Positions 37,021 through 55,182 are shown, numbered from the stretch's first letter. The stretch: DNA of 64,000 nucleotides from an uncultured Apibacter sp. (GCA_945280365.1 CALYQD010000001.1:286306-350305), one strand, 5' to 3'. Numbers and translations are program-made. Notes: generated by a model not told the origin, from the sequence alone.

Positions 37021-37094
37021 GGTCGCGTAGCTCAGCTGGATAGAGCATCTGCCTTCTAAGCAGACGGTCAAAGGTTCGAATCCTTTCGCGATCA
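37021..37094 (+). tRNA. tRNA-Arg(UCU), integration target
   Basis: Acceptor GGTCGCG/CGCGATC (one G-T pair), anticodon stem TCTGC/GCAGA with loop CTTCTAA (anticodon TCT), T arm AGGTTCGAATCCT. Its last 15 bases are repeated at 48363, so the 3' end is the attachment site of the island that follows. Confidence 0.95.
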
Positions 37095-37095
37095 C
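37080..37095 (+). repeat. attL: left attachment repeat of the island
   Basis: ATCCTTTCGCGATCAC, the 3' end of tRNA-Arg plus one base, recurs exactly at 48363-48378. A recombinase remnant starts 350 bases inside the left copy. This is the standard layout of tRNA-targeted integrative elements. Confidence 0.85.
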
Positions 37096-37444: not shown

Positions 37445-38584
37445 ATGCCCCTAAAAGTAAGCTATTCCGTATCTGCCCCTTTTGCGGAAAGATAAAATCA
37501 AAGTAAGCGGACAATGTCCCTTGTACCTCCTTATTATTTTAAATTCTCATAAATTAAAAATTCCCTTGGGGGTATCAGAAGACCCCAAAGACCGAGATAG
37601 CCTAAAAAAGAGGTTCAAAGGAAAAGGCTATGCCACTTTGAACAACCTCTTAGACAGAGAAGAGCGAAAAATAAAAGACTTCATCAACCAGACTATTTCA
37701 GCCGAGCAAAATATAAAGTTGGAAAAAATAAATAATTTTGTAAATAAAAAGAACCTCCATGACTTCTTTACCTTCTTTGAAAAAATATTCTGTCCCCTGA
37801 GGCTTCAAAACATAGAAGAAGGAACCCAATATCATTACAAGCTATTAGGAAAAGTCCTGAAAGAATACAGGCCCGGTTTAAGTCTGCAAGACATGGACTT
37901 AAATTTTATACAGGAGTTTGATTGATACCTGAAAGACAACAATAAAGGAGTATGGAGTACCCATAAAAACCTGAAATCAGTACTCCTTTAGGCAAAAAAG
38001 CTGAATTACATGGAAGATAATCACTCACTACGATGAATTTAAAGTTCCCAGCCCAAACATAAAACCCATTTCCTGACTTCCCCGGAAGTAGAAAAAAATC
38101 AAAAACCTTGAACTCAATGAAAGCCTGGGCCAGACCAGGGATAAATTCCTGTTAACCTGTTATACCGGGCTTCGGTTTTTCGATATTCTCCAAATTATCC
38201 GCGAGAACTGGGGAAGAGTTCACGGAACCGTTCATATGGAAATGCAAAATGGTACGAGTTCCTTTAACCAGAAATTCCTTAAAAATAATCCAGAAATACC
38301 AAAAGTTCAAACCCAAGGACGAGCCTATATTTAAAAAAGTTTCCAACCAGAAATTAAACGATATGCTCAAAGTAATAGACAAAAAAGCCGGGGTAAACCC
38401 CAGCCTGTCCTTTCACTGGGCAAAGCATACCTATGGTACATTGTTAGCTAACAGTAGGTTTAATGCCTTTGAGATAAGGAAGCTACTGGGGCATAAAGAC
38501 CTGAAACAGTCTTTGGTTTATGTAAATTCCACTGATAAAATGATGAAGGAGAAAATAAAGGATGCAGATTTCTTTAATAAGTAA
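37445..38584 (+). pseudogene. Degraded tyrosine recombinase (island integrase)
   Basis: The frames 37445, 37482-37925 and 38249-38584 together spell a Bacteroidota phage-type integrase: an Arm-like N terminus ('KIKVSGQCPLYLLIIL'), a core-binding domain ('YHYKLLGKVLKEYRPGL'), and a catalytic domain with 'CYTGLRF' (Arg I), 'FHWAKHTYGTLL' and 'LLGHKDLKQSLVYV' (His and nucleophile Tyr). There is a frameshift near 37480, in-frame stops at 37922 and near 37989, and further frame changes before 38249. The HxxR box reads HWAK, so the catalytic Arg is Lys. The enzyme is dead, and the island is no longer self-mobile. Confidence 0.85.
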
Positions 38585-40843: not shown

Positions 40844-41233
40844 ATGGCTATTTTAACTACTTCAATAATAACAGTTATAGTTACATTTTTAGCAAAAGAG
40901 GGTGCAACTAAAGTTTATGAAACTGTTATCGAAACTCTTTCAATAGAAGCAATCAATAAAATTAAAAATGTTTTCACAAAAGATGGTAAACCGAAAGAGG
41001 TTATATCTGAGTTACAGGAAAAACCTGATAGTGTAGCTAGACAAAATGCCGTAAAAGCCTTAATTGAAAAGTCAATTGAAGATGATCCAGAAATAGAAAA
41101 TGCTTTTATGGAATTTTTTCAAAAAATTCCTAATGGAATAACAACTAATATTTCACATAGTAAGAATGTAAACACTGGAGATATAAATAGTGCTGGAGGC
41201 GATATAGATTTGCGCATTGGAGATGGAATTTAA
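40844..41233 (+). CDS. Small helical protein with C-terminal amyloid-like motif (candidate effector)
   Basis: The 129-aa protein starts with a hydrophobic helix ('TTSIITVIVTFLAKEGATKV'), followed by amphipathic helices ('ALIEKSIEDDPEIENAFMEF'). The last ~25 residues are a Gly/Asn-rich tail 'KNVNTGDINSAGGDIDLRIG'. This matches the general plan of small membrane-active effector domains (Bell-like) with a C-terminal amyloid signalling motif. The next gene overlaps by 11-17 bases and begins with a matching motif. I infer that the receptor nucleates this protein's tail, and the N-terminal helices then damage the membrane. The family assignment is by pattern only. Confidence 0.55.
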   Translation: MAILTTSIITVIVTFLAKEGATKVYETVIETLSIEAINKIKNVFTKDGKPKEVISELQEKPDSVARQNAVKALIEKSIEDDPEIENAFMEFFQKIPNGITTNISHSKNVNTGDINSAGGDIDLRIGDGI

Positions 41234-41294
41234 AAATATAAATACTGGAAATATAGATAGTGGAGGAGCTCCTATAAATATTAATATAGGTGAT
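41162..41294 (+). repeat. Two-copy direct repeat encoding the shared motif
   Basis: The segments 41162-41224 and 41232-41294 align without gaps at an offset of 70 bases, with 44 of 63 bases identical by hand count. Copy 1 encodes the C-terminal motif of the small protein. Copy 2, in a different reading frame, encodes the N-terminal motif of the large protein. At protein level 12 of 21 residues are identical. Confidence 0.8.
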
Positions 41295-44200
41295 AAGAAT
41301 ATTTTTAATGATTTGACTATTTTATTAGAAGAATATAAATATCAACTTAGAGATATAGAAAAGTTATTAAATGAATTTAAACCTAAAACGGCACTACAAC
41401 AACTTAATAAGTTAGAAGAAAGGATTAATTCTTCTCCTTTAAAGGTAGATAATATAACATCTAGTAAAATTTTATTCGTTAAAGCTTTATGTCAAAGTCA
41501 CTTAAATGAATTCTCCAGAGAGACTTCTGCACAAAACTTTATTAAAGCCTATAAAAAGGACAATTATAATGAAAAACTAAGAATAAGAGCTTGTCTTGAA
41601 TATTTATTTATAAATGAATATGATAAAGCCCTTGAATTAGCTGAAGAAATTATTATAGAAGATGAATTTAATTTAGCTGCTTGGTATGTAAAAATGGTTA
41701 CTATACCTAACAAAGAATTAAAAAGGTTTATTAAAAATATACCTGAAATCGTAAGAAATGACAACAATTTTCAATATAATATACTTTATCACTTAATTTT
41801 AATAAACCAAGCTGATGATAATAAATTTGATACATTAGAAGAAATAGAGAATGAGTATGGGATTATTTTAAATATCAATTTTGATAATTTTAAAGAGTTG
41901 AGATTTGAAAATTTAAATACTTGGAAATTAATTATTGATTTAGCCTCAACTTTGATATTTAATGAATATGAATTTATTTTAAAGCAAATTTCTGAGAAAC
42001 AAGGTCTACAGATAGAAGCAAATATTACATTAAGTTCTACTTTAAGCTTATTAAATATTTTTATTAATACTCTTAAGGATAGTGAGATTGAATGTTTTCA
42101 TCAAAAATTTTACTACAATTTTTTTAATTATATTTTAAATAATGATAAAGATTATGTTAATGAATTAGAAAATATTTATAAAATTCATTATTCCAATAAA
42201 ACAGAGTGGTTTGCTACATATCTGATATGTAAAGTCTTAATAAACGAGAAAGATTATTCAAAGGGATTAGATATTATTAGTCATTATGAAACAAAGAAAG
42301 GTGAATTAACTTCAGATCTATATTATATTAAAATTATTCTCACATTTTTATTGAAAGATAATAACGATATAGTAGTTTTTTTTAGCGAGCATTTAAAAAA
42401 GGTTGGAATAATTGATGAGAAGTCTGGGATAAATATTTTGAATACTTTTATTCCTTTTTTTTTCAGAAGAAATATTGAGTTGAAACCTCAAGTAGATAAA
42501 TTATTAAATAGTCAATTTCAGTCAGAAGAATTAAAGGATTTATTAGAATGTTCTATAATTATAAAATCTACTCAAGATTTTGATAAAGATACGATTTATA
42601 AAAGGTTATTAATATTAAAAAGATTTCCTTTTAGCTATATAGGTAAAGATTTAATAGCTCAAAATTTTGCTTTAATAGGGAAAATTAAAGATGCTATTAA
42701 TTTGTTAAATTCTTATATTGACAAATCTCGAATATCATCTTCCTTACATTTGTATATAATGCTTATTTATCAGCAATTAAGTGATAAAAGTGATACAGAA
42801 CAAGGGAAGTATAAAGAATTATTAGAACTACTCAAGTTTTGGAGGATAAATAGCAATATTATTGATATTAGCTTTTTTGAAATAGAATCTAAATTATATG
42901 AATGGAAAAATGATTGGGAGAGTTTTAAAGAGTTACAAGAATTTATATATTTAAAAGACCCTAATGATTTAATAAATTTTACAAACTACTTAATATCTCT
43001 TGATAACTTGAAATTAGTAGATAAAATAGAGGACTTGTCTTCATCTATTCCTATTGAATTTGAAGATGAAAATATTGGATTAACTTTTTTCAATATTTTA
43101 ATTAAAAATAATATTGCTTTAGATAAATCTTTCTATATACTTTATAATTTAGCCATTAATTCAGGAAACAGACAAGCAAGAGAAAATTATTTTTTTAAAA
43201 GTCACTTATTCAAAGACAAATTTTTTAAACATTATAAAATAGTAAAACCTAATTATTGGGTACAATATGAATTAAATAAGAAGATTCAAGAGATAAAAAT
43301 CACAAATCCAAAAGATAAAAATCAAAATTATTTTTTAAATAAAAAAAATGGTGAAATATTCACTATAAAAACGAATCCTTTTAATGCCTTAAATCAAATA
43401 AAAATAATTAATATTTATAATGATTATTTGCACCTTTATTATGAAATTGTAAAAGAAGCTAAAAATCCCATAAATTCATTAGAAATTTATAATATGGAAA
43501 TTCCTGCCAGCCCGGAAGAATTCAATGAATATTTAAAGGAAAATTTTGGTGAAGAAGGGTCTTTAGAAAAGAGGAAAAAAGAAAAATATTTAAATGACTA
43601 TTACAATTATAGAATAGGGCTTACTGAAATAACAAGAGTTTTCAGAGAAAAATATATAGATACATATTTATACCTAACAAGTGAAAATAATCAAATTTTC
43701 ACTACGTTACCTTCACTAGCAACTATTAATATTGATATTCATAATACTTTTATCTTAGATTTCAGCACATTAATATTATTCTATCAATTAGAAAAAGAAC
43801 TTCATTTTAAATTTAAGCATAAATATATTTTATCATATCTTGTTAAAGAAAATATTGAAGATATTATTTTAGAAGAAAAAAACTCACCAAAATCTGAACT
43901 TAGTCTACAAATTACAAATGAAAAAGTAATTCCTTATTTTTTTCCAGAAAATTATAATCAACTAAGAATTGATTTCTTTGAATCTCTTTTAAGCTGGATT
44001 AATCATAATTGTATTATAGATTTAGTTGAAGAGAAATTAGATATTGCATTTAAACTTGAAAAGAATAATAAAAAATTTGGAAAATTCATGAAAATTTTCA
44101 TTGATAGTATGTATTTATCTACAAGACAAAAATCTAATTTGATTAGTAGTGATTCTTCTTTATTCCTATTCCTGAAAAAATCTAATCAACAAGCAAATAT

Positions 44201-44645
44201 AATTAATCCAGAAAAATACTTAAATTATTTTTACCCAGAAAAATGCAATACACAATTTTATAGGTACCTTTTAAAATCTAATTATTTAGGTGTTAATATA
44301 AATTTTGAAGTGATAAAAAACGAATTTTACGATTATTTATTGTCAAAAGAAAATTATTATATAAAATGTTTAGAAAATTTACAATTTTCAGTTAATGGAA
44401 ATCCTCAAATTATAAAAACGGTATGTGATTTTATTAAGGAATTGTATTTAATAAATTCCTTAAAAATTACAGAGAAGAATAGGTATGCATTTGAAATATT
44501 TAAACATACGCTTTATGGTATGCCCTCTAAATTAGCTATTGATTTGTTAAAAAATTTAGAAAAAGAATTTAAACTTTTAGGAGATTATTATATTCAAGTT
44601 TTAACTACATTTAAAAGTTGTATGGATTTTTATAAAAAACTCTAA
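41223..44645 (+). CDS. Large helical-repeat protein with N-terminal amyloid-like motif and PIN-like C-terminal region (candidate receptor)
   Basis: About 1140 aa from ATG 41223 (the ORF track uses TTG 41217). Residues ~3-24 carry 'KNINTGNIDSGGAPININIG', which matches the tail of the preceding protein. The following ~750 residues are helical repeats of TPR type ('YDKALELAEEIIIEDEFNLA', 'IGKIKDAINLLNSYIDKSRI'). The C-terminal third has 'NTFILDFSTLILFYQLEKEL' and later 'LISSDSSLFLFLK', spaced like the first and later acidic motifs of PIN-domain nucleases. No P-loop or NACHT/NB-ARC motif is seen. There is no signal peptide, so it is cytoplasmic. I propose a sensor in an island-encoded defence system. 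The PIN call is tentative. Confidence 0.5.
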   Translation: MEFKNINTGNIDSGGAPININIGDKNIFNDLTILLEEYKYQLRDIEKLLNEFKPKTALQQLNKLEERINSSPLKVDNITSSKILFVKALCQSHLNEFSRETSAQNFIKAYKKDNYNEKLRIRACLEYLFINEYDKALELAEEIIIEDEFNLAAWYVKMVTIPNKELKRFIKNIPEIVRNDNNFQYNILYHLILINQADDNKFDTLEEIENEYGIILNINFDNFKELRFENLNTWKLIIDLASTLIFNEYEFILKQISEKQGLQIEANITLSSTLSLLNIFINTLKDSEIECFHQKFYYNFFNYILNNDKDYVNELENIYKIHYSNKTEWFATYLICKVLINEKDYSKGLDIISHYETKKGELTSDLYYIKIILTFLLKDNNDIVVFFSEHLKKVGIIDEKSGINILNTFIPFFFRRNIELKPQVDKLLNSQFQSEELKDLLECSIIIKSTQDFDKDTIYKRLLILKRFPFSYIGKDLIAQNFALIGKIKDAINLLNSYIDKSRISSSLHLYIMLIYQQLSDKSDTEQGKYKELLELLKFWRINSNIIDISFFEIESKLYEWKNDWESFKELQEFIYLKDPNDLINFTNYLISLDNLKLVDKIEDLSSSIPIEFEDENIGLTFFNILIKNNIALDKSFYILYNLAINSGNRQARENYFFKSHLFKDKFFKHYKIVKPNYWVQYELNKKIQEIKITNPKDKNQNYFLNKKNGEIFTIKTNPFNALNQIKIINIYNDYLHLYYEIVKEAKNPINSLEIYNMEIPASPEEFNEYLKENFGEEGSLEKRKKEKYLNDYYNYRIGLTEITRVFREKYIDTYLYLTSENNQIFTTLPSLATINIDIHNTFILDFSTLILFYQLEKELHFKFKHKYILSYLVKENIEDIILEEKNSPKSELSLQITNEKVIPYFFPENYNQLRIDFFESLLSWINHNCIIDLVEEKLDIAFKLEKNNKKFGKFMKIFIDSMYLSTRQKSNLISSDSSLFLFLKKSNQQANIINPEKYLNYFYPEKCNTQFYRYLLKSNYLGVNINFEVIKNEFYDYLLSKENYYIKCLENLQFSVNGNPQIIKTVCDFIKELYLINSLKITEKNRYAFEIFKHTLYGMPSKLAIDLLKNLEKEFKLLGDYYIQVLTTFKSCMDFYKKL

Positions 44646-44729: not shown

Positions 44730-45251
44730 TCAAAAAAGTAGGTTTCTTCGGTTTATTTGTGTCTTTGTCTTTCCAATGAAAAAAATCATAAGGATAAATT
44801 GATTATTTCTTAAAATACTATCATCTAAACCTTTTATTTTTACTAAAGCTCCTGCTTCCCAACACCAGTATCCGTAGAAGTTTCTGCCATTTTCAAATTT
44901 ATGCGTATTGTATTCATAATCTAAATTTTCAAGAGTGTAATAATATATTTTTAATTTTTTTAATGCTTCGATTTTATCTTCGGTTTTTAATATATCAGCA
45001 AAGAAGTTTACAGATTTGTTATCATCTATTAGTAATTTTTCTTTTATGGGGTAATCGGATATCTGGCTATTTATAAAATAATCAATAACAAAGTCTTGAA
45101 ATTTTTTTTCTTTTATAGTAGTTGCTAAATCCTCAAAATATTCTTTCTCTACATCTGCAAGTATCCCTAAAGAAATTATCTCTAACAGACTCCAGACGTT
45201 GGATTCTGTTACCTTCCCATGACAAAAAATTCCTCTAAAAAAAGAAGACAA
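44730..45251 (-). CDS. DUF1911-type (PoNi-like) immunity protein, N-terminally truncated
   Basis: The 173-aa frame contains 'LEIISLGILADVEKEYFEDL' and 'GYWCWEAGALVKIKGLDDS', the core of DUF1911 proteins, some of which (PoNi) neutralise PD-(D/E)xK nuclease toxins. The usual N-terminal DUF1910 half is missing. The first ~17 residues ('MSSFFRGIFCHGKVTES') come from a sequence repeated at 53.6 kb. No cognate toxin is next to it. It is probably an orphan or residual immunity gene left by cargo exchange. The last residues ('KTKTQINRRNLLF') are also untypical. Confidence 0.65.
   Translation of the reverse strand: MSSFFRGIFCHGKVTESNVWSLLEIISLGILADVEKEYFEDLATTIKEKKFQDFVIDYFINSQISDYPIKEKLLIDDNKSVNFFADILKTEDKIEALKKLKIYYYTLENLDYEYNTHKFENGRNFYGYWCWEAGALVKIKGLDDSILRNNQFILMIFFIGKTKTQINRRNLLF
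45195..45235. repeat. Dispersed ~40-bp repeat, copy A
   Basis: GACGTTGGATTCTGTTACCT and the following ~20 bases match 53579-53619 with only a few mismatches. This copy lies at the truncated 5' end of the DUF1911 gene. The other lies upstream of a decayed minus-strand gene. Confidence 0.6.
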
Positions 45252-45427: not shown

Positions 45428-46795
45428 ATGGTAGGTAAGGATGGAGGAGTAAAATACCTAAATAATTATAAACCACCGGAATCCCTACGGGTAATTAAGT
45501 TGGAAGGTCCATTTAATGAAGAAGGAGAAAAGGTTACAGTATTGAAGAAAGGAAAGTCCTATAAATACAAAGTTACTGAATTTAATAGGGAGTTGCGTAA
45601 TGAGATAGAATTAAAAAGAATAAAATGGTCTTTACAGAATAATGGTGAAAATCTTATATCTATATCTCAAGTAATGGGAAAAAAGGAGGTTACTCTTAGT
45701 GTTTCAGAGACTGAATCCTCAAAGAAAATTACTATTTATGCTTATTTTGAAAATCCAGAGGAAGAAGGAGTTGCTGAATCTAGCTTAGGGGAAGGCGGAA
45801 TTCATACAAGGTTTTATGATGAACAAGGACAACAGGTATATGAAATTCCCGAAAAACTCCACAAGGCTTTTAATGAAGAATACGGTATAAAGATTGCCTA
45901 TGACAAGGAAAATGAAATGCTGTATTATGAAGGGGAATGTACTCCGGCTTATGAAAAGACATCTCCTACTGCAATAAACCACTGGAAAAAGGAATTGAAC
46001 CGGGAAGAAATCTCGAAAGGAAAGTTACTTTTTGGGTATAGCTTTGGTTATGAAGCTTATTCTGCCAGTAAAGATAAGAATGGGAATACTTATGATAGAG
46101 ATGGTGTTTTGATTGAGGATATATATGCAAAACAACCTGTAAATAGAGGAATAGTCCCGGGATATAGGAAAGAAGTTTATAAAAAATATGAGGATGGAAG
46201 TAAAGGATATGTAAAAGATACATTTATTGGTAATATAGCCTGTATTGATTTAGGGGATTTTGAAGATGATTTAATGGTTAAGTTTACATATTATGAATTA
46301 CCTAGTTCTAGAGAGCTTCATTTTAAAGAATTTAATATACCATTACCAGAATTAACTCCTAGATATAGTGGTTTAACTAGAATATTAGAACATGAGTTTA
46401 TAGGACATGTTTTATTGAAGTTGACAGATGATAGATATGAACTATTATCTAATGAATATAAGACAGAAGGGCCAACACAAGTGGAGGCTAAATTATGTAA
46501 TGTAATAAGAAGAGAAATTGGAATACCAGAACGGATTTCTTACGGAGGAATGGCTACGAATTCATCAAGAGCTGGACGAAGTGAAATAGAATTTGGGTAT
46601 CTTAATGGGGATAATGAGCGTTATAGTTCCAGTGTTGATAGTCGAGATACTAATTATCCTAGTCCACCTAGAAAATATCCTGAACGTCATGGGACAGCAA
46701 TAATTGATGCACAAGATGTTAAAAAATTAGTTATAATAAAAAATATAATTAAAATTAAATATGATGTACAACAAGAAGGTTTTACTTTTTCTTAG
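45428..46795 (+). CDS. Putative effector with HEXXGH metallopeptidase motif
   Basis: The 455-aa ORF has an Ig-like N-terminal segment ('GKSYKYKVTEFNREL', 'KKITIYAYFENPEEE') similar to the linker of the 55265 effector. The C-terminal domain contains 'RILEHEFIGHVLLKL' (HEXXGH zinc motif as in M49-type peptidases) and a downstream 'PTQVEAKLCNVIRREIGIPER' that could give the third ligand. The true N terminus is frameshifted (see 45312-45377). It has no PAAR or VgrG domain. Two similar exported proteins follow and overlap its end, as expected for immunity. I infer a T6SS-delivered antibacterial peptidase. Confidence 0.6.
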   Translation: MVGKDGGVKYLNNYKPPESLRVIKLEGPFNEEGEKVTVLKKGKSYKYKVTEFNRELRNEIELKRIKWSLQNNGENLISISQVMGKKEVTLSVSETESSKKITIYAYFENPEEEGVAESSLGEGGIHTRFYDEQGQQVYEIPEKLHKAFNEEYGIKIAYDKENEMLYYEGECTPAYEKTSPTAINHWKKELNREEISKGKLLFGYSFGYEAYSASKDKNGNTYDRDGVLIEDIYAKQPVNRGIVPGYRKEVYKKYEDGSKGYVKDTFIGNIACIDLGDFEDDLMVKFTYYELPSSRELHFKEFNIPLPELTPRYSGLTRILEHEFIGHVLLKLTDDRYELLSNEYKTEGPTQVEAKLCNVIRREIGIPERISYGGMATNSSRAGRSEIEFGYLNGDNERYSSSVDSRDTNYPSPPRKYPERHGTAIIDAQDVKKLVIIKNIIKIKYDVQQEGFTFS

Positions 46796-47417
46796 TTTAT
46801 TCTTTTTTGAAATAGCATTACTTAGTGGGCAAATTAAGGATAGTTGTTCTATGTATAGTATTTGTAATTCTAGAATAGATACAGTTAAATTGAATATTTA
46901 TAAATCAATTCTTCTTTCTAAAGAACTGCAAAATAATAAAAAATGTCATATAGTGGGAGTTAATCCTATTTCTTTAGATATGAAATATTCGCCGGGCTAT
47001 GGAGCAATGTTTTATGATATAAAAGAAATTGAGGATTCTACATCTATTAATAATTTGAAAAAATCTTTCCCTAAATCTTATAGATTTTATTCAATTAATG
47101 ATAAATTATCTAATTCTTTGCAAAATAAAGAATATATATATTATTTAGAAAGATCAACAAAAAATGATGATGTTTATTCTTTATATTATTTTTATGATGA
47201 AATATGTGATAATAATTTTGATATAATAAAAATACAAGAACCTTTAGACAATTGGATTAGGATTTATGAAGCGAACATCTTATTAAATAAAGCAAATGTA
47301 GTAATCCCTGTTATTTATGAATCTTTTATAGATAAACCTAAATATCTTTTATATAAAATAGAATTATATGAAGGAAGTACAAAAGTAAAATCTGTGAAAA
47401 CAGTAGAATTAGAGTAA
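46764..47417 (+). CDS. Exported putative immunity protein, copy 1
   Basis: The ~217-aa protein has a signal peptide 'MYNKKVLLFLSLFFFEIALLSGQ'; mature cysteines ('DSCSMYSICNS') may form disulfides. It overlaps the effector's 3' end by about 30 bases. The first ATG is 46761; the second (46764) matches the start of the downstream copy. Its last 40 residues ('VVIPVIYESFIDKPKYLLYK' onward) are identical to those of the next gene. A periplasmic location suits protection from a periplasm-acting peptidase. Function is inferred from context. Confidence 0.55.
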   Translation: MYNKKVLLFLSLFFFEIALLSGQIKDSCSMYSICNSRIDTVKLNIYKSILLSKELQNNKKCHIVGVNPISLDMKYSPGYGAMFYDIKEIEDSTSINNLKKSFPKSYRFYSINDKLSNSLQNKEYIYYLERSTKNDDVYSLYYFYDEICDNNFDIIKIQEPLDNWIRIYEANILLNKANVVIPVIYESFIDKPKYLLYKIELYEGSTKVKSVKTVELE

Positions 47418-48332: not shown

Positions 48333-48362
48333 AAATTAAGTATGTTACAAGATTGGGTTTCT

Positions 48363-48378
48363 ATCCTTTCGCGATCAC
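48363..48378 (+). repeat. attR: right attachment repeat of the island
   Basis: ATCCTTTCGCGATCAC, an exact copy of the tRNA-Arg 3' end at 37080-37095. The rest of the tRNA is absent here. It defines an 11,283-bp element between the two repeats. Confidence 0.85.
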
Positions 48379-49028: not shown

Positions 49029-50606
49029 TTATTTTTGATATGCAGGTAATGAACCTCCGGCATTAACATTTTCTCTGTTAGGAACTATGGGATAAACGGT
49101 ATTGCTCAGATAATATCTTAACGCCCGTAATACGCCTGCTTCTGAAGTAAATTTACCTTCTCTGTATTCTTTATAAAAATTTAAAATCTGTGTGGAGGCA
49201 GTTAAAGCATTCTGAGCTCCTTTGGAATGCCCATCTTTGTCCGGATGAGCATGTTTATCAGGATCTTGTGCATCATACCCCTGAAATTGTACAATTTGAT
49301 TATTAGCGTCTCTTTGAACGTGAGAAAGTGAATAGGAATCCTGAACCATATGAAGTATTTTTCCTATGAAGAATAAACCATCATTTCCATCTTTCTTCCC
49401 GCTATAGGAATTTCCGATAGGGCTGTGAAACCATGACAGCTTTTTATTATTTTCAGGGTTAATTCCTTGTTTAAACCATTCTTCTGCCTGGTTAAGAATT
49501 AATTCTTTTACCTGTTGGTTGGTGTAATTTCCTGAAGGGGCCATAGAGTGCCAGTATTGCTTGGCACCATTATGACTTTCATAAGCAAGAGTTCCTTCTT
49601 TATTTAGATTTATCCATGTTTTTAAATAGCAGGTTTCAATGGAAGATTGATTTTCACAAGGTACATCCGGCCAGGCACTTCCTTCATCTAGCCGATAGTC
49701 ATAAATTACCCCGGCTGCTTTTGCTGCCTGTTTGGTAATATTTTCATGGATGGCACCTCCTCCCCGGATTTTAAAGAATTCTACTTGTACTTCTTCCCCA
49801 TTATCTAAAATTACAATTCCATGATCGTCTTCTTTCTTTTCTGCATAAAATAAGTCTTTTGATTTAATTTCAATATTCGGAATATTTTTTAACACTTTTG
49901 CGGTAAAGGTTCTGGTCTGTTTAATTTTATCTTCTATCTCAAATTCAGCAAATGTAAATTCTTTAAACAATAATCTATTATAATGAATAAAATCTATGGC
50001 AAACCTTGTTCCTTCATCTCCGGGTGCATCTCCTCCAATATCATCATACTTATTTCTGAGTAAGTCATCTATATAATGTCCGATTTCTTCAATCATTATC
50101 TGAAACAATAACCAGCTTTTTTCCGGATCATTTTCGGCTTCCAGAATTATTTTTTCATTAATATAAATGGTTTTATTCTTTTCATTATAAAACCCGCCCT
50201 GATAATTTGATAGAGGTATTGCCTTCCACTTTGGTAAGGGAACATTATTTGCCAATAAATCCAACATAAATTTTTTGGCAGCTGTATGTTTTATATCATC
50301 TCCGAAGATAGCCCTGATGCCGGCAATAAAAGGTTTTGAGCTTTCATAATTGAGAATTTTGGATATATCTAGGTAAGGTGTTTGTAATTCCTGAGAATTC
50401 CGTATATATAAGTCTGATTTGATGTTGATAACTCTTTCTCCTTCTCTTATATATTCTTCAGGATCTCCCAGTACAACTCCCTCTTGTTTTCCATTTTCAA
50501 ATATCCTTCCCATAGATCTAGTGATTATATTCTCTTTGGAATACATATTATGATTGCCGTGGGTAATTTTAGTAATATTACCTTTTACATATCGGTCCCT
50601 ACTCAT
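49029..50606 (-). CDS. T6SS cargo effector with EExGH/GDEG domain and zinc phospholipase-C-like domain
   Basis: The 525-aa protein begins with a leader of the effector type ('YVKGNITKITHGNHNMYS'). A middle domain (~130-220) has 'MIEEIGHYIDDLLRNKYDDI' and 'APGDEGTRFA', the EExGH...GDEG motif of a family seen in secreted and calcium-binding proteins. The C-terminal half has 'GGGAIHENITKQAAKAAG', 'WHSM' and 'GKILHMVQDSYSLSHVQRD', the His/Asp pattern of zinc phospholipase C/S1-P1 nuclease-like folds. It lies 2 bases after vgrG, so it is probable VgrG cargo. Substrate (lipid or nucleic acid) is unknown. Confidence 0.65.
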   Translation of the reverse strand: MSRDRYVKGNITKITHGNHNMYSKENIITRSMGRIFENGKQEGVVLGDPEEYIREGERVINIKSDLYIRNSQELQTPYLDISKILNYESSKPFIAGIRAIFGDDIKHTAAKKFMLDLLANNVPLPKWKAIPLSNYQGGFYNEKNKTIYINEKIILEAENDPEKSWLLFQIMIEEIGHYIDDLLRNKYDDIGGDAPGDEGTRFAIDFIHYNRLLFKEFTFAEFEIEDKIKQTRTFTAKVLKNIPNIEIKSKDLFYAEKKEDDHGIVILDNGEEVQVEFFKIRGGGAIHENITKQAAKAAGVIYDYRLDEGSAWPDVPCENQSSIETCYLKTWINLNKEGTLAYESHNGAKQYWHSMAPSGNYTNQQVKELILNQAEEWFKQGINPENNKKLSWFHSPIGNSYSGKKDGNDGLFFIGKILHMVQDSYSLSHVQRDANNQIVQFQGYDAQDPDKHAHPDKDGHSKGAQNALTASTQILNFYKEYREGKFTSEAGVLRALRYYLSNTVYPIVPNRENVNAGGSLPAYQK

Positions 50607-50608
50607 GG

Positions 50609-52558
50609 CTAAAATAAATTGGATTTTTCTCCACTGTTATTATTAACCCGTATTTCAGCATTTTTGGAAACTTTTTCTTTACCGATGATCTCAAAGTTTT
50701 TCATGCTTACTTCGTTACGGGTTTGTTTGGCTTCGGAAACAAAGTCACCATCAATAAATTCGGAATATTTTCCGGTAACATTCACTGTATAATTGGCTCC
50801 GACAGTAAGTGAATTCATCTGGCCTATTGTAGTAGATTTATCAGAACCTACAAAAGTATGCATGTTTTCTCCGGCCTGTAGAATGATGTCTTTACCTGCC
50901 TTAACGGAAAAATTATTAGGCGCATTCACCTTTATATTTCCTTCTCCGTCCATAAACATTTTGTTACCGCTGGGGTCTTCAATCAGGATAGAACCTTGCC
51001 CTTCCGCATCATTAAAGATAATTTTGGTTCCACTTCTTGTTTGTATCACCTTAATATCATTTCCCTCGGTGTAATAGGCAGCTATCTCACCTCCGTTATA
51101 AGCTGTTCCCAATACTACCGGATATTCCGCATTTCCTCCCTGAAAGGCCACTAGTACGGTTTCTCCTATCTCTGGGTTGATATAAGTTCCCTTATCTGCT
51201 CCTGCATGGGGTTGAATTATCTGTATCCAGGGAGTTTGCTGATTGTATGGCTTTTGCCATACAAACTGTACTCGGATTCTCCCCATCCTAAGCGGATCTT
51301 TGTTGTCCGTTACAGTGGCATGTTGTATATCTGCTTTGGGGTAATCGTTTTCATTATAATCAGCGGGTACTGATAAGTCCTTAGGTATTCCCACAAAGCT
51401 GTTGGTATAGCCTTCTCCATCTGCAAAAGTATGCGAAATGGAAATAATTTTGTACGATTCCACCGGGACCCGTCCAGACTTAAAGGTATTGTGTCCCGGC
51501 ATCCAGGCCATCATTTTAACCACTGTACCTATTTGTAGTTCCGGATTATTGCTTGTGGCTTCCATATACACCAGATTCTGTCTTTTTCTTTTTTCCCTTT
51601 CCACCGACCTTTGAATATCTATTTGGTTGTTTGGGTTCTGTAGGTAATGATTTGTTGGGGAAACATTGTAGGCTTTTTCTGAAGCATTAATGGCAAACTG
51701 CTGAAAAGGGTTTTCTGAGGATTGTACTTGCTGGGAAGCAGAATCTACAGTATAATCTGCGCTTTGCTTAGGATCATAAACGGTAGTGCTGAAGCCCTGG
51801 GGCTGAATTTCCATTTTAAGCTCATAATCAAATACATCTTCCCCTTCCATCAGTTCCACTATTTTAGCTCCCCAGGCTGAAAACCGGAAACGGTCGCCTG
51901 TATAGTGGAAATTTTCCCCGTAACGATGGGATAATCTCTGAAGAAAAGAGAAATCGCTTTCATTCATCTGAACGGTATAAGGTAGTTTATTCTTGTAATT
52001 GGGATTTATGTCAAAACTGATTAAATCTTGGGGATAGCCCTTGTTTACTTCTTTAATGATTTGTTCAAAGGTTTGTTCTTCAAAACTACGGCAGTGAAGC
52101 CCGTTTTCCATAAGTATGGAAGGGGATTTTCCCCTGAGGATAATATGCTTGGAACCGTCTTTAATTCGTGTGGAGATTTGGGTGATAACCCCAATAAATT
52201 GGGAGGCTGTTTTTCCAAACTGTTTGAAAAAGAAAGTGATTCTTTTCCCCAGATGCTGACGGGAATTCTCCAACAGATAGGCTTTTCCTTCTCCAAACTC
52301 ATCTGGATCTGCAGTAAGTTCAAAGGTATGATGTCCGTTAAAGTTTTGTTTGAGCTCCAGCCGAAGGTTGGTTTGAGTGAAATAATCAACTCCCTGAATT
52401 TGAACGCCTATTGAAACCAGAGAACCGTCCCCATACAGGTTGTCTTTCAGACCTCCGTACCGTGCATAAGTGCCGGTTTTGTTTATTTTTTCTATTTCCT
52501 GTTGTGATAATACTTTAAAGGGCTGATTTCCAAAGTTATCTGAATTAGATGAATTCAT
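50609..52558 (-). CDS. vgrG: Type VI secretion spike protein VgrG
   Basis: The 649-aa protein has the gp27-like N-terminal domain ('YFTQTNLRLELKQNFNGHHT', 'QRLSHRYGENFHYTGDRFRF'), the gp5 OB-fold ('DPLRMGRIRVQFVWQKPYNQ', 'PWIQIIQPHAGADKGTYINP', 'NAEYPVVLGTAYNGG') and a C-terminal beta-helix with repeats ('GKDIILQAGENMH'). This is the Bacteroidota VgrG layout; the trimer forms the T6SS tip that carries the neighbouring effector. It is the first gene of a minus-strand run vgrG-effector-membrane protein. Confidence 0.93.
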   Translation of the reverse strand: MNSSNSDNFGNQPFKVLSQQEIEKINKTGTYARYGGLKDNLYGDGSLVSIGVQIQGVDYFTQTNLRLELKQNFNGHHTFELTADPDEFGEGKAYLLENSRQHLGKRITFFFKQFGKTASQFIGVITQISTRIKDGSKHIILRGKSPSILMENGLHCRSFEEQTFEQIIKEVNKGYPQDLISFDINPNYKNKLPYTVQMNESDFSFLQRLSHRYGENFHYTGDRFRFSAWGAKIVELMEGEDVFDYELKMEIQPQGFSTTVYDPKQSADYTVDSASQQVQSSENPFQQFAINASEKAYNVSPTNHYLQNPNNQIDIQRSVEREKRKRQNLVYMEATSNNPELQIGTVVKMMAWMPGHNTFKSGRVPVESYKIISISHTFADGEGYTNSFVGIPKDLSVPADYNENDYPKADIQHATVTDNKDPLRMGRIRVQFVWQKPYNQQTPWIQIIQPHAGADKGTYINPEIGETVLVAFQGGNAEYPVVLGTAYNGGEIAAYYTEGNDIKVIQTRSGTKIIFNDAEGQGSILIEDPSGNKMFMDGEGNIKVNAPNNFSVKAGKDIILQAGENMHTFVGSDKSTTIGQMNSLTVGANYTVNVTGKYSEFIDGDFVSEAKQTRNEVSMKNFEIIGKEKVSKNAEIRVNNNSGEKSNLF

Positions 52559-52745
52559 AAGGTATGAGCGAATATAAGGTTAATATTAGTAATACTATAA
52601 TTTAAATAGATAAAGTAAAAGTACTGATTATTTTTTATATGAAAAATAAATTCAGCTAATTTTTATTAAAGATATAATATTGGTTTTTTAAGTATGTATG
52701 AGATGGATTAATCTGTATTTTTTATTTTAAAGTTTTTTGTATTTG

Positions 52746-53451
52746 TTAAGACAACTCTCTGTTCACAGATTTACCCAACAAGTAAGAAAGATCAAAAGAG
52801 GTTATATATTTGGTAAGACATTCCCCGGTGGTGGAGGTATTTACCCCGTTGTTTACCTTCAGGTCGTATTCCCGGTTTTCAAAATCAAAAACTAAGTTAG
52901 ATTTTGGCTAAATTTTTTAGGAAGATTAAACCCGAAATATTCAAAAATTCGTTTTCTTTTTATAGTTATAAAGATGTTATCTGGACCTTGTGTATAAATT
53001 ACAGGAGGAAGAGAGCTTTTTCTTTTTGGAATTTATTACTTTACGACCGGTTTTTTGAATATTTTACTTCCGTACTTGATACCCTCAATCAGACCCCTTT
53101 CCAGATTTTTTCACTTTCCGTATGAATTGAACCTTGCGAGAAAGGACTATTTTACAAGGTATCTTCTCTTTATGTAACCAAGGTTCGGGCCATTCTCTTT
53201 TTAGAACCTCAACAATTTCTTTAGAAGCTGTGATAATAGGAAAATGGGGATTATGGGTTTTCCTATGGGGGGAGAAATTGCACTTCAAAGATTTGATTCT
53301 CACAAACTGGATTCTCTTTTTTCTTTGAAGCCACTTCTTCTACTTTTTCATACTCAAAGAAAAAGCGCGGAACATTCCGTTAATCCATTTATTAAGGCTA
53401 CTTGTTTTAATCGCCTTTACTGTGAGGTTTATAAAATGAGACTCTTTTCAT
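52746..53451 (-). pseudogene. Decayed gene upstream of vgrG
   Basis: Pieces of one protein can be read on the minus strand in alternating frames: 'MKRVSFYKPHSKG', 'TSSLNKWINGMFRA', 'FEYEKVEEVASKKKENPVC', 'NPHFPIITASKEIVEVLKRE', 'SSLPPVIYTQGPDNIFITIK', and finally 'FDFENREYDLKVNNG' to the stop at 52746. At least four frameshifts and two stops are needed. The protein would be ~220 aa and soluble. I do not recognise it. Its position suggests a lost cargo, chaperone or immunity gene. The plus-strand ORFs over this area are shadows. Confidence 0.55.
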
Positions 53452-53578
53452 GTTTTCAGGATGGGGATAGTATCGGTTGGCAAAGCTGCTTTGCGTATGG
53501 GAGAATAAACGAATTATAATTTTAAAAAAAATTGAAAACGATTTAGATGAGCTTTCGTGTATTGAATTACATAGCCTT

Positions 53579-53619
53579 GACGTAGGATTCTGTTACTTTC
53601 CCGAAACAAAAAATCTCTG
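53579..53619. repeat. Dispersed ~40-bp repeat, copy B
   Basis: GACGTAGGATTCTGTTACTT and flanking bases match 45195-45235. In minus-strand reading both encode a GKVTES peptide; here it is followed by a stop. Confidence 0.6.
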
Positions 53620-53726
53620 TAAAAGAATAAAATACAGATATTTCATAAAAATAAAATTTATTTTATTTAACAATAAGCGAAAATAATTATATTTGGAGGA
53701 TAAATATTTGCTTATTTTATAGTACA

Positions 53727-54641
53727 ATGGACAACATTCCTTTATTTTTTACCCCTTCTTCCAATAATTTAAAAGAGCCTGTATTTAAGGCCGATTTTTC
53801 TTCTTTGTATCATAAGTATGAAGTCGTCATAGAAATTGAAAAAGAAAATACCAAGACTAAAATAGAATATAGGGCAGGAGTAAAGCTTGAAAGGAAATCG
53901 CCAAGTTCAAAAAATCCGATACTAAGCATACAAAAGCTAACCAAAGTTCTTATTAATGGAATAGAACCCGACCTTATAACAGAAAAAATATCTGCTCTGG
54001 TAGGAAGTATCTTCCAACCGTTACAAATAGAATTGGGCCCCCAAGGAGAAATTTTGAATATTTCCAACTATGAATCTATCCTGAAAAAATGGGAAGAGGT
54101 AAAGGAAAACCTACAAATGAATTATGCCGGGCAAACGTTGGATAGTTATATAAATAACATCAATCAAACGTTGAAATCCCCGGAACTGGTTTTAAAAAAA
54201 CTAAAAAACGATTGGTTCCTCTCTTTATACTGTGTACCCCTGTATACTGAATATACGAATCCTCCGGAAAAAGAAAAATGGAAATTTCCTTCCTTGTTGA
54301 AAGGAGAGGCAGCAAAAGAATACTCGGTTATTAAGTCTTCTGAAAATTTAAATGATTCAGAAAACTCTATTTTGATTTTTGTACAAGACTTAGATACCCC
54401 GGATACCTTTACCAGTATTTATACTTTGGATAATAAAACCAAGCTCATAAAAAACATAGAAGCAGTTATAACTGAAAAAGAAGGATATTCCATTAGAGCA
54501 GACATACAATGTATAGAAATCCATAAAAAAGAAAAAGAAAATACGCCGATACCCGCAAAAAAGAAAGATTTTGATGAACAAGCTGAATGGCAGAAATACC
54601 AAAGGAAGAAAAAAGGATTTTGGGGACGGTTGTTTGATTGA
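53727..54641 (+). CDS. T6SS cargo-locus protein of unknown function
   Basis: The 304-aa cytoplasmic protein has no signal peptide and no catalytic motif that I can name. It has an alpha/beta N-terminal part ('YHKYEVVIEIEKENTKTKIE') and helices ('LKKWEEVKENLQMNYAGQTL'), and ends in a lysine-rich tail with 'QKYQRKKKGFWGRLFD'. It sits 73 bases before the PAAR-like gene and the wall-hydrolase effector. In Bacteroidota such proteins precede DUF4280 genes and could act as adaptors or chaperones for loading. That role is inferred from context. Confidence 0.55.
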   Translation: MDNIPLFFTPSSNNLKEPVFKADFSSLYHKYEVVIEIEKENTKTKIEYRAGVKLERKSPSSKNPILSIQKLTKVLINGIEPDLITEKISALVGSIFQPLQIELGPQGEILNISNYESILKKWEEVKENLQMNYAGQTLDSYINNINQTLKSPELVLKKLKNDWFLSLYCVPLYTEYTNPPEKEKWKFPSLLKGEAAKEYSVIKSSENLNDSENSILIFVQDLDTPDTFTSIYTLDNKTKLIKNIEAVITEKEGYSIRADIQCIEIHKKEKENTPIPAKKKDFDEQAEWQKYQRKKKGFWGRLFD

Positions 54642-54714
54642 AAAAAAAAATACCTGTAGGTAGCCATGATCGTTAAAAAAACTAAAAAAGAGATAAAAAT
54701 CTAATAAAAAACCT

Positions 54715-55182
54715 ATGAGTCAGAAATATTTTGTATGCCAGGGGGCTATTTGTAAATGTGATTTTGGAAGTACTCCTGATAAACTTTTAGTGAAAACCCA
54801 AACTTCTGTCTATTTAAATGATGGTGAAGGATTGTACAAACTGGCTGCTACAACCAAAGAATTAGGACAAACCTTTGAAAAAAATACCTTTGGGAGCTGT
54901 TCAAAGAAAAATGGAAATTCTTGTATGGCGAATGTAACCGGGTGGAAGGATTATAAAGATAATCAGAAAATAGTAGAAAATGATTCTTGTCTCTTACTGG
55001 AAGATAGTACGGCAGATTGCCCGTTAGGAGGAAGTGGCTGTATAAAGATTACTTTTCATGGCCAGGTTACCGATGTTCATTCTCTGCATTTTGAAAAATC
55101 AGATGAAACAGTATTACAGCAATTGATGCCTTTAACTAATTTCAATGAAATAATTAACGATACAGAAAATTGGGTAGAATGA
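54715..55182 (+). CDS. DUF4280 PAAR-like spike-tip protein
   Basis: The 155-aa protein starts 'YFVCQGAICKCDFGSTPDKL' and contains 'FGSCSKKNGNSCMA', 'DSCLLLEDSTADCPLGGSGC' and 'IKITFHGQV'. The ordered cysteines and the PAAR-like beta pattern identify DUF4280, the PAAR-like cap of Bacteroidota T6SS spikes. It should sit on VgrG and bind the downstream effector. Confidence 0.88.
   Translation: MSQKYFVCQGAICKCDFGSTPDKLLVKTQTSVYLNDGEGLYKLAATTKELGQTFEKNTFGSCSKKNGNSCMANVTGWKDYKDNQKIVENDSCLLLEDSTADCPLGGSGCIKITFHGQVTDVHSLHFEKSDETVLQQLMPLTNFNEIINDTENWVE

Follow-up and report, generated by a model that had tools for sequence, protein, structure and literature searches.

An overlapping pair of genes in an uncultured Apibacter sp. 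raises the question of whether a bacterial receptor devoid of a recognisable NTPase switch may signal to a separate effector through a short motif carried by both proteins. The pair lies at positions 40844-44645 of the window, as we call the whole stretch of 64,000 nucleotides analysed here (GCA_945280365.1 CALYQD010000001.1:286306-350305), and a preliminary description made from the sequence alone had proposed it as a candidate amyloid-coupled defence or cell-death pair. On balance we slightly favour the view that the two genes form an immune or cell-death module, in which a surveillance receptor couples to a membrane-type effector via a homotypic, probably amyloid-type motif.

A motif shared by two overlapping genes

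The effector gene (40844-41233, plus strand; open reading frame call, AlphaFold2 model and homologues) encodes 129 amino acids. The receptor open reading frame that follows on the same strand was listed at 41217-44645, with a TTG start at 41217 and 1142 amino acids; its start is likely the ATG at 41223, which gives 1140 amino acids (41223-44645) and an overlap of 11 nucleotides with the effector gene, the same overlap being present in several relatives. The C terminus of the effector (KNVNTGDINSAGGDIDLRIGD, 41162-41224, plus strand) and the N terminus of the receptor (KNINTGNIDSGGAPININIGD, 41232-41294, plus strand), delimited by motif alignment, co-variation and profile-profile match, were identical at 12 of 21 residues. 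Both the two overlapping genes and this likeness had been pointed out in the preliminary description, and the alignment score of the motifs (69) was well above those of 5000 shuffles (best 48, mean 24.6).

When the effector and receptor families were compared profile to profile, the motif alone aligned, effector C terminus to receptor N terminus (E-value 2.8e-5). Among adjacent same-strand gene pairs (n = 167, in 438 kb from 31 loci), motif scores were between 46 and 81 in 17 of the 17 pairs of this kind, the best score of any other pair being 31. The effector-receptor pair is genuine, well beyond chance. The two motifs are encoded by distinct stretches of DNA in different reading frames, and a single stretch read in two ways is therefore not the source of the match. 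Both motifs are short, rich in G, N, I and V, and located outside folded domains; AlphaFold2 left the two of them disordered instead of placing them within ordinary folds.

Linkage and co-variation

A scan of genome contigs yielded seven loci, all from Flavobacteriales (Chryseobacterium, Kaistella and Flavobacterium); in each of them the small gene was found directly upstream of the large one, with the motif on both. In all, around ten pairs with a receptor of this type were obtained besides that of the window, from Chryseobacterium, Kaistella and other Flavobacteriales, and their genes were without exception adjacent. Searches with the effector profile were positive for 13 of 323 Weeksellaceae genomes, this being the family to which the window belongs, and for 8 of 400 genomes of a second family, where some of the matches were distant. 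The pair is accessory, as none of the eight other genomes listed from the genus of the window carries it. Receptor counts could not be based on the Pfam model PF20698, which is too insensitive for this purpose (found in 6 of the 323 Weeksellaceae genomes, mostly below its cut-off). Eight loci with a receptor of the TPR-GreA/B-C-PIN type described below but lacking the motif (L016-L023) differed in the N-terminal region of the receptor, and none of them contained a homologue of the effector. In Flavobacterium sp. 28A (L027:4989-8405) the receptor was split into open reading frames of 872 and 248 amino acids and is apparently broken, the upstream effector being intact. Scans of viral contigs with the receptor, the effector and an actinobacterial relative of the latter gave no match, nor did a search of phage records; from plasmids, the searches returned only distant receptors, whose N termini were of other kinds, and a single weak relative of the effector.

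The motif letters change together within pairs across species. Over 15 pairs, the mean motif score was 65.8 for cognate and 46.5 for non-cognate combinations; the observed cognate fit was reached in none of 200,000 permutations and, with nine representatives, in 26 of 362,880. Two loci (L029 and L030) illustrate this behaviour, their effector bodies being 77% and their receptor bodies 75% identical, with only 38% identity between the receptor motifs; despite this divergence each motif still resembles that of its own partner.

These data also bear on whether the likeness of the motifs could be a by-product of DNA duplication, gene conversion or fission of a fused protein, with no role in signalling. 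In the window, the starts of the two motif-coding stretches are separated by only 70 bp, and the DNA of the two is about 70% identical, as such an origin would predict. However, identical motif residues often differ in codon, the same codon being used for 2 of 10 in L024 and for 5 of 12 in L030, and the match persists in some 15 pairs, with receptors of two unrelated types (see below). Gene conversion as the source of the likeness was rejected on these codon differences, and we regard a by-product without signalling role as highly improbable. Because codons often differ, selection on protein contact explains the co-variation better than recent copying.

Receptor and effector proteins

PF20698 (PIN-TPR-GreABC) was the sole Pfam domain found on the receptor (32.3 bits, cut-off 27.8); together with the fold, this match identifies the protein as TPR-GreA/B-C-PIN. 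A TPR-like helical solenoid spans residues 38-662 (41328-43202, plus strand) in the AlphaFold2 model, and its best PDB matches by Foldseek were TPR-type solenoids of the IFT-A, Ski and Paf1 complexes, with no individual Pfam TPR model over threshold on the receptor. Residues 681-734 (43257-43418, plus strand) form a beta-rich segment in AlphaFold2, at the place expected for GreA/B-C from the published description (PMC8195603); this putative assignment is based on position and a KKxGE-type sequence, and domain models match none. The PIN domain (43752-44159, plus strand) was recognised by Pfam and by its conserved acidic residues. The nuclease is probably active, since D848, E939, D963 and D979 are kept without exception in 12 homologous sequences. 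No NTPase domain was matched by Pfam in the receptor. Thus, the TPR-like repeats, the PIN-like end and the lack of a visible NACHT/NB-ARC switch, all noted from the sequence at the outset, were borne out.

The TPR-GreA/B-C-PIN architecture has been predicted as a conflict system, encoded mostly by standalone genes (Kaur et al. 2021 eLife, PMC8195603), whose products carry, fused at the N terminus, either a variable effector or EAD10, and are proposed to act on RNA polymerase (PMC8195603). The window receptor resembles it in having a TPR solenoid, a beta-rich segment in the GreA/B-C position and a PIN domain over the Pfam cut-off, and differs in that a gene of its own, conserved and located upstream, encodes the effector, the link being a short shared motif. 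Only a motif of about 30 residues precedes the TPRs, with neither a fused effector nor EAD10, and residues 1-28 are disordered in AlphaFold2. Since the effector is encoded separately, the system is a split variant of TPR-GreA/B-C-PIN. The preliminary description had supposed an undescribed architecture; this holds for the separate motif-linked effector, which is what is new here, but not for the receptor, whose architecture had already been described (PF20698; PMC8195603). In the papers searched, no TPR-GreA/B-C-PIN protein was described as being linked by a shared motif to a separate effector, a mention in the primary BASS paper being possible.

The effector model was a helical bundle with a hydrophobic N-terminal helix, in which residues 98-129, motif included, showed predicted local distance difference test (pLDDT) values below 50, corresponding to a disordered C-terminal tail. 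The effector is probably a helical-bundle protein acting at the membrane. Its family matched a two-member actinobacterial set in one profile comparison (88%, E-value 2.8e-6), and the Arthrobacter member of this set overlaps a gene for a P-loop NTPase with WD-like repeats. Through this relative, homology of the effector to Bell, as envisaged in the preliminary description, is only suggestive: the profile match is consistent with a Bell-like protein and not proof of one, and fold searches gave no match.

On the Arthrobacter plasmid pA58H2 (L068:4986-7350), an effector-like protein overlaps an NTPase gene with WD-like repeats, and the tail of the former and the head of the latter have a common NxxGDVG-type stretch; this plasmid-borne locus resembles a canonical bacterial amyloid pair. 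Membership of the effector in HetE-N (PF20701) was also considered and rejected, the score (14.4 bits, E-value 0.049) being under the Pfam cut-off of 25 bits; this model matched two of eight effector family members, all weakly. HetE-N proteins were sought in 248 genomes for profile comparison and nothing matched anywhere, so that this search was uninformative.

Exchange of the receptor

In five genomes of Weeksellaceae relatives (G463, G586, G509, G653 and G671, the last one cut by the contig end) an effector homologue precedes a protein of about 1450 amino acids that does not belong to the TPR family. This swapped receptor starts with a matching motif (for instance, GGNFINGDGNQMS in the effector and GGDFINGNNNF in the receptor), followed by an nSTAND3 NTPase domain (27.3 bits, Pfam cut-off 27.2) with the Walker A sequence GEAGSGKS; no PIN match was obtained in it. 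In the effector tree, the nSTAND3-paired effectors group with TPR-paired effectors of Chryseobacterium (support 92/90), and the effector bodies of L024 and L055 are 64% identical, their receptors being unrelated. In related genomes, nSTAND3 proteins (PF20720) thus take the part of the receptor beside this effector family and its motif, whereas the window receptor has no detectable homology to them except the motif. Since one effector family pairs with unrelated receptors via a matching motif, the latter behaves as a modular coupler, the receptor being exchanged while effector and motif are retained. The amyloid-pair-like layout put forward for the window was in this way reinforced, the homologous pairs found being all adjacent, their motifs co-varying, and the same effector family standing beside motif-bearing STAND NTPases; of the sequence-level observations named at the outset as refuting it, none was encountered.

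The exchange is also informative with respect to a toxin-antitoxin-like arrangement, in which one of the two proteins would hold the other in check, the small one acting on the PIN nuclease of its large partner or vice versa, with the motif as their binding site. A small gene placed first and tightly overlapping that of a large putative nuclease, with the PIN acidic residues intact, would agree with such an arrangement. Nevertheless, the same small family is kept with the unrelated nSTAND3 NTPase receptor, without PIN match, which argues against the small protein being a dedicated PIN inhibitor; furthermore, the motif is alike on both sides and located at the far N terminus, some 820 residues from the PIN domain. 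We consider a toxin-antitoxin-like pair unlikely.

Other arrangements of small proteins and motifs were observed. At L058:2890-5180 (G824), the first gene codes for a Peptidase_C14 caspase with TPR-S, the next for a distant relative of the effector with two copies of the motif in its tail, and the third for a membrane-type protein of 104 amino acids with the motif again at its N terminus; this is possibly a third wiring of the same motif. At L057:5173-9037 (G955), a small helical protein ending in NVNGNNNNVFSDINGSTITL adjoins an AAA/ATPase with TNGNNNNILNNIQNSTIII at its N terminus, a motif of another class that follows the same pairing logic.

Genomic context

The pair lies within an 11.3-kb island integrated at tRNA-Arg, in agreement with the tRNA-borne island indicated by the preliminary description. 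The 3' end of the tRNA (37073-37095, plus strand; repeat search) constitutes the left attachment repeat, and an imperfect 23-bp copy of it the right one (48356-48378, plus strand; repeat search and empty sites); in two genomes of the same genus the site is empty, the right flank coming directly after the tRNA. A broken tyrosine integrase was recognised by Pfam as two fragments (37482-38584, plus strand), corresponding to Arm-DNA-bind_5 (37482-37925) and Phage_integrase (38249-38584). In another genome of the genus (G399, L078:2458-6993), a related integrase is found at the same tRNA-Arg with other cargo (proteins of 354 and 416 amino acids) and exact attachment repeats, and the site has therefore been reused. 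Elsewhere, some of the pairs were located in defence islands, and their neighbours included type I restriction-modification, Old/Gabija-like ATPase, HEC-01, Hachiman HamB or Cas9 genes, or integrases.

Downstream of the pair, the island carries a PoNi-type immunity gene (44730-45251; PF08929), for which Pfam found no recognised toxin partner, and a region (45428-47417) coding for a 455-amino-acid protein with no Pfam match and an HExxH-type sequence (HEFIGH), followed by a protein of 218 amino acids whose N terminus is signal-like. Immediately beyond the right end of the island, the genes at 49029-55182 may form a cluster of type VI secretion cargo, comprising a VgrG-like spike (50609-52558), a neighbouring gene with weak similarity to phospholipase C (49029-50606) and a DUF4280 protein (54715-55182).

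Discussion

Signalling from receptor to effector through a homotypic motif, as in the Bell/BASS-NLR signalosomes, is the best-supported reading of these data. Bell-NLR pairs offer a precedent for the layout (PMC7889193), and for pairs laid out in this way the amyloid nature of the motifs has been demonstrated (PMC8086366). Those systems are similar to the present one in their adjacent or overlapping genes, in a small helical protein with a hydrophobic N-terminal helix and a C-terminal motif of about 20 residues, and in a large receptor whose N terminus repeats that motif; the nSTAND3-paired relatives display the complete layout, NLR-type receptor included. The window receptor differs in being a TPR-GreA/B-C-PIN protein without NTPase switch, and the present pairs come from Flavobacteriales, whereas the described BASS families are mainly from actinomycetes, cyanobacteria and archaea (PMC7889193, PMC8086366, PMC9815663). 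The EADs of ternary conflict systems (PMC8195603) are comparable as homotypic adaptors joining separate effectors to sensors, but they are folded alpha-helical domains, in contrast with the disordered, G/N-rich motif of about 21 residues found here.

According to the mechanism that we propose, the receptor would sense the hijacking of a transcription complex or some other indication of invasion, possibly with its GreA/B-C-like part on RNA polymerase, as the literature proposes; a trigger related to RNA polymerase status is taken by analogy from the TPR-GreA/B-C-PIN proposal. Sensing would expose or cluster the receptor motif, which would template the effector motif into a cross-beta assembly, and this would gather effectors and push the hydrophobic helix at their N terminus into the membrane, so that the infected cell would be killed or stalled. 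The amyloid step is suggested by layout, composition, disorder and precedent; membrane action, killing by the effector and phage defence are presumed.

Several observations weigh against this interpretation. The mean pLDDT of the effector model was 68, which is a modest confidence, and the hydrophobicity of helix 1 is only borderline for membrane insertion. PDB searches with the effector, by sequence and by fold, matched no solved structure, and its fold matched no solved pore-former. A PADLOC scan of the effector and receptor proteins gave no match in either, and a role in defence is indicated by association only. In addition, the motif resembles two published BASS3-type peptides weakly, a likeness that is unconvincing after multiple comparisons.

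The motif could also be a non-amyloid docking tag, which by beta-pairing or another heterotypic contact would hold a resting complex, signalling then occurring by release or conformational change; this would still be a defence pair. Co-variation, linkage and receptor swap need only a specific contact and not a fibril, and in this respect agree with a tag. On the other hand, the motifs are short, disordered and rich in G, N, I and V, the layout equals that of pairs with proven amyloid motifs (PMC8086366), and both sides are alike, as homotypic stacking needs, whereas docking tags are more often complementary. Docking thus appears to us a tentative explanation, of clearly lower probability than a homotypic, amyloid-type coupling.

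The pair stands about an even chance of being an NLR-independent bacterial amyloid signalosome, in which a TPR-GreA/B-C-PIN protein, possibly one that surveys RNA polymerase, templates a small membrane-type death effector via a cognate, fast-evolving, prion-like motif, the latter serving as a plug for either a STAND NTPase or a nuclease receptor. A 2021 review asked whether NLR-independent bacterial signalling amyloids exist (PMC7889193), and the pair makes this question directly testable, the natural receptor swap and the natural motif variants being material for it. The predicted TPR-GreA/B-C-PIN system, for its part, gains a conserved partner and hence a route to output.
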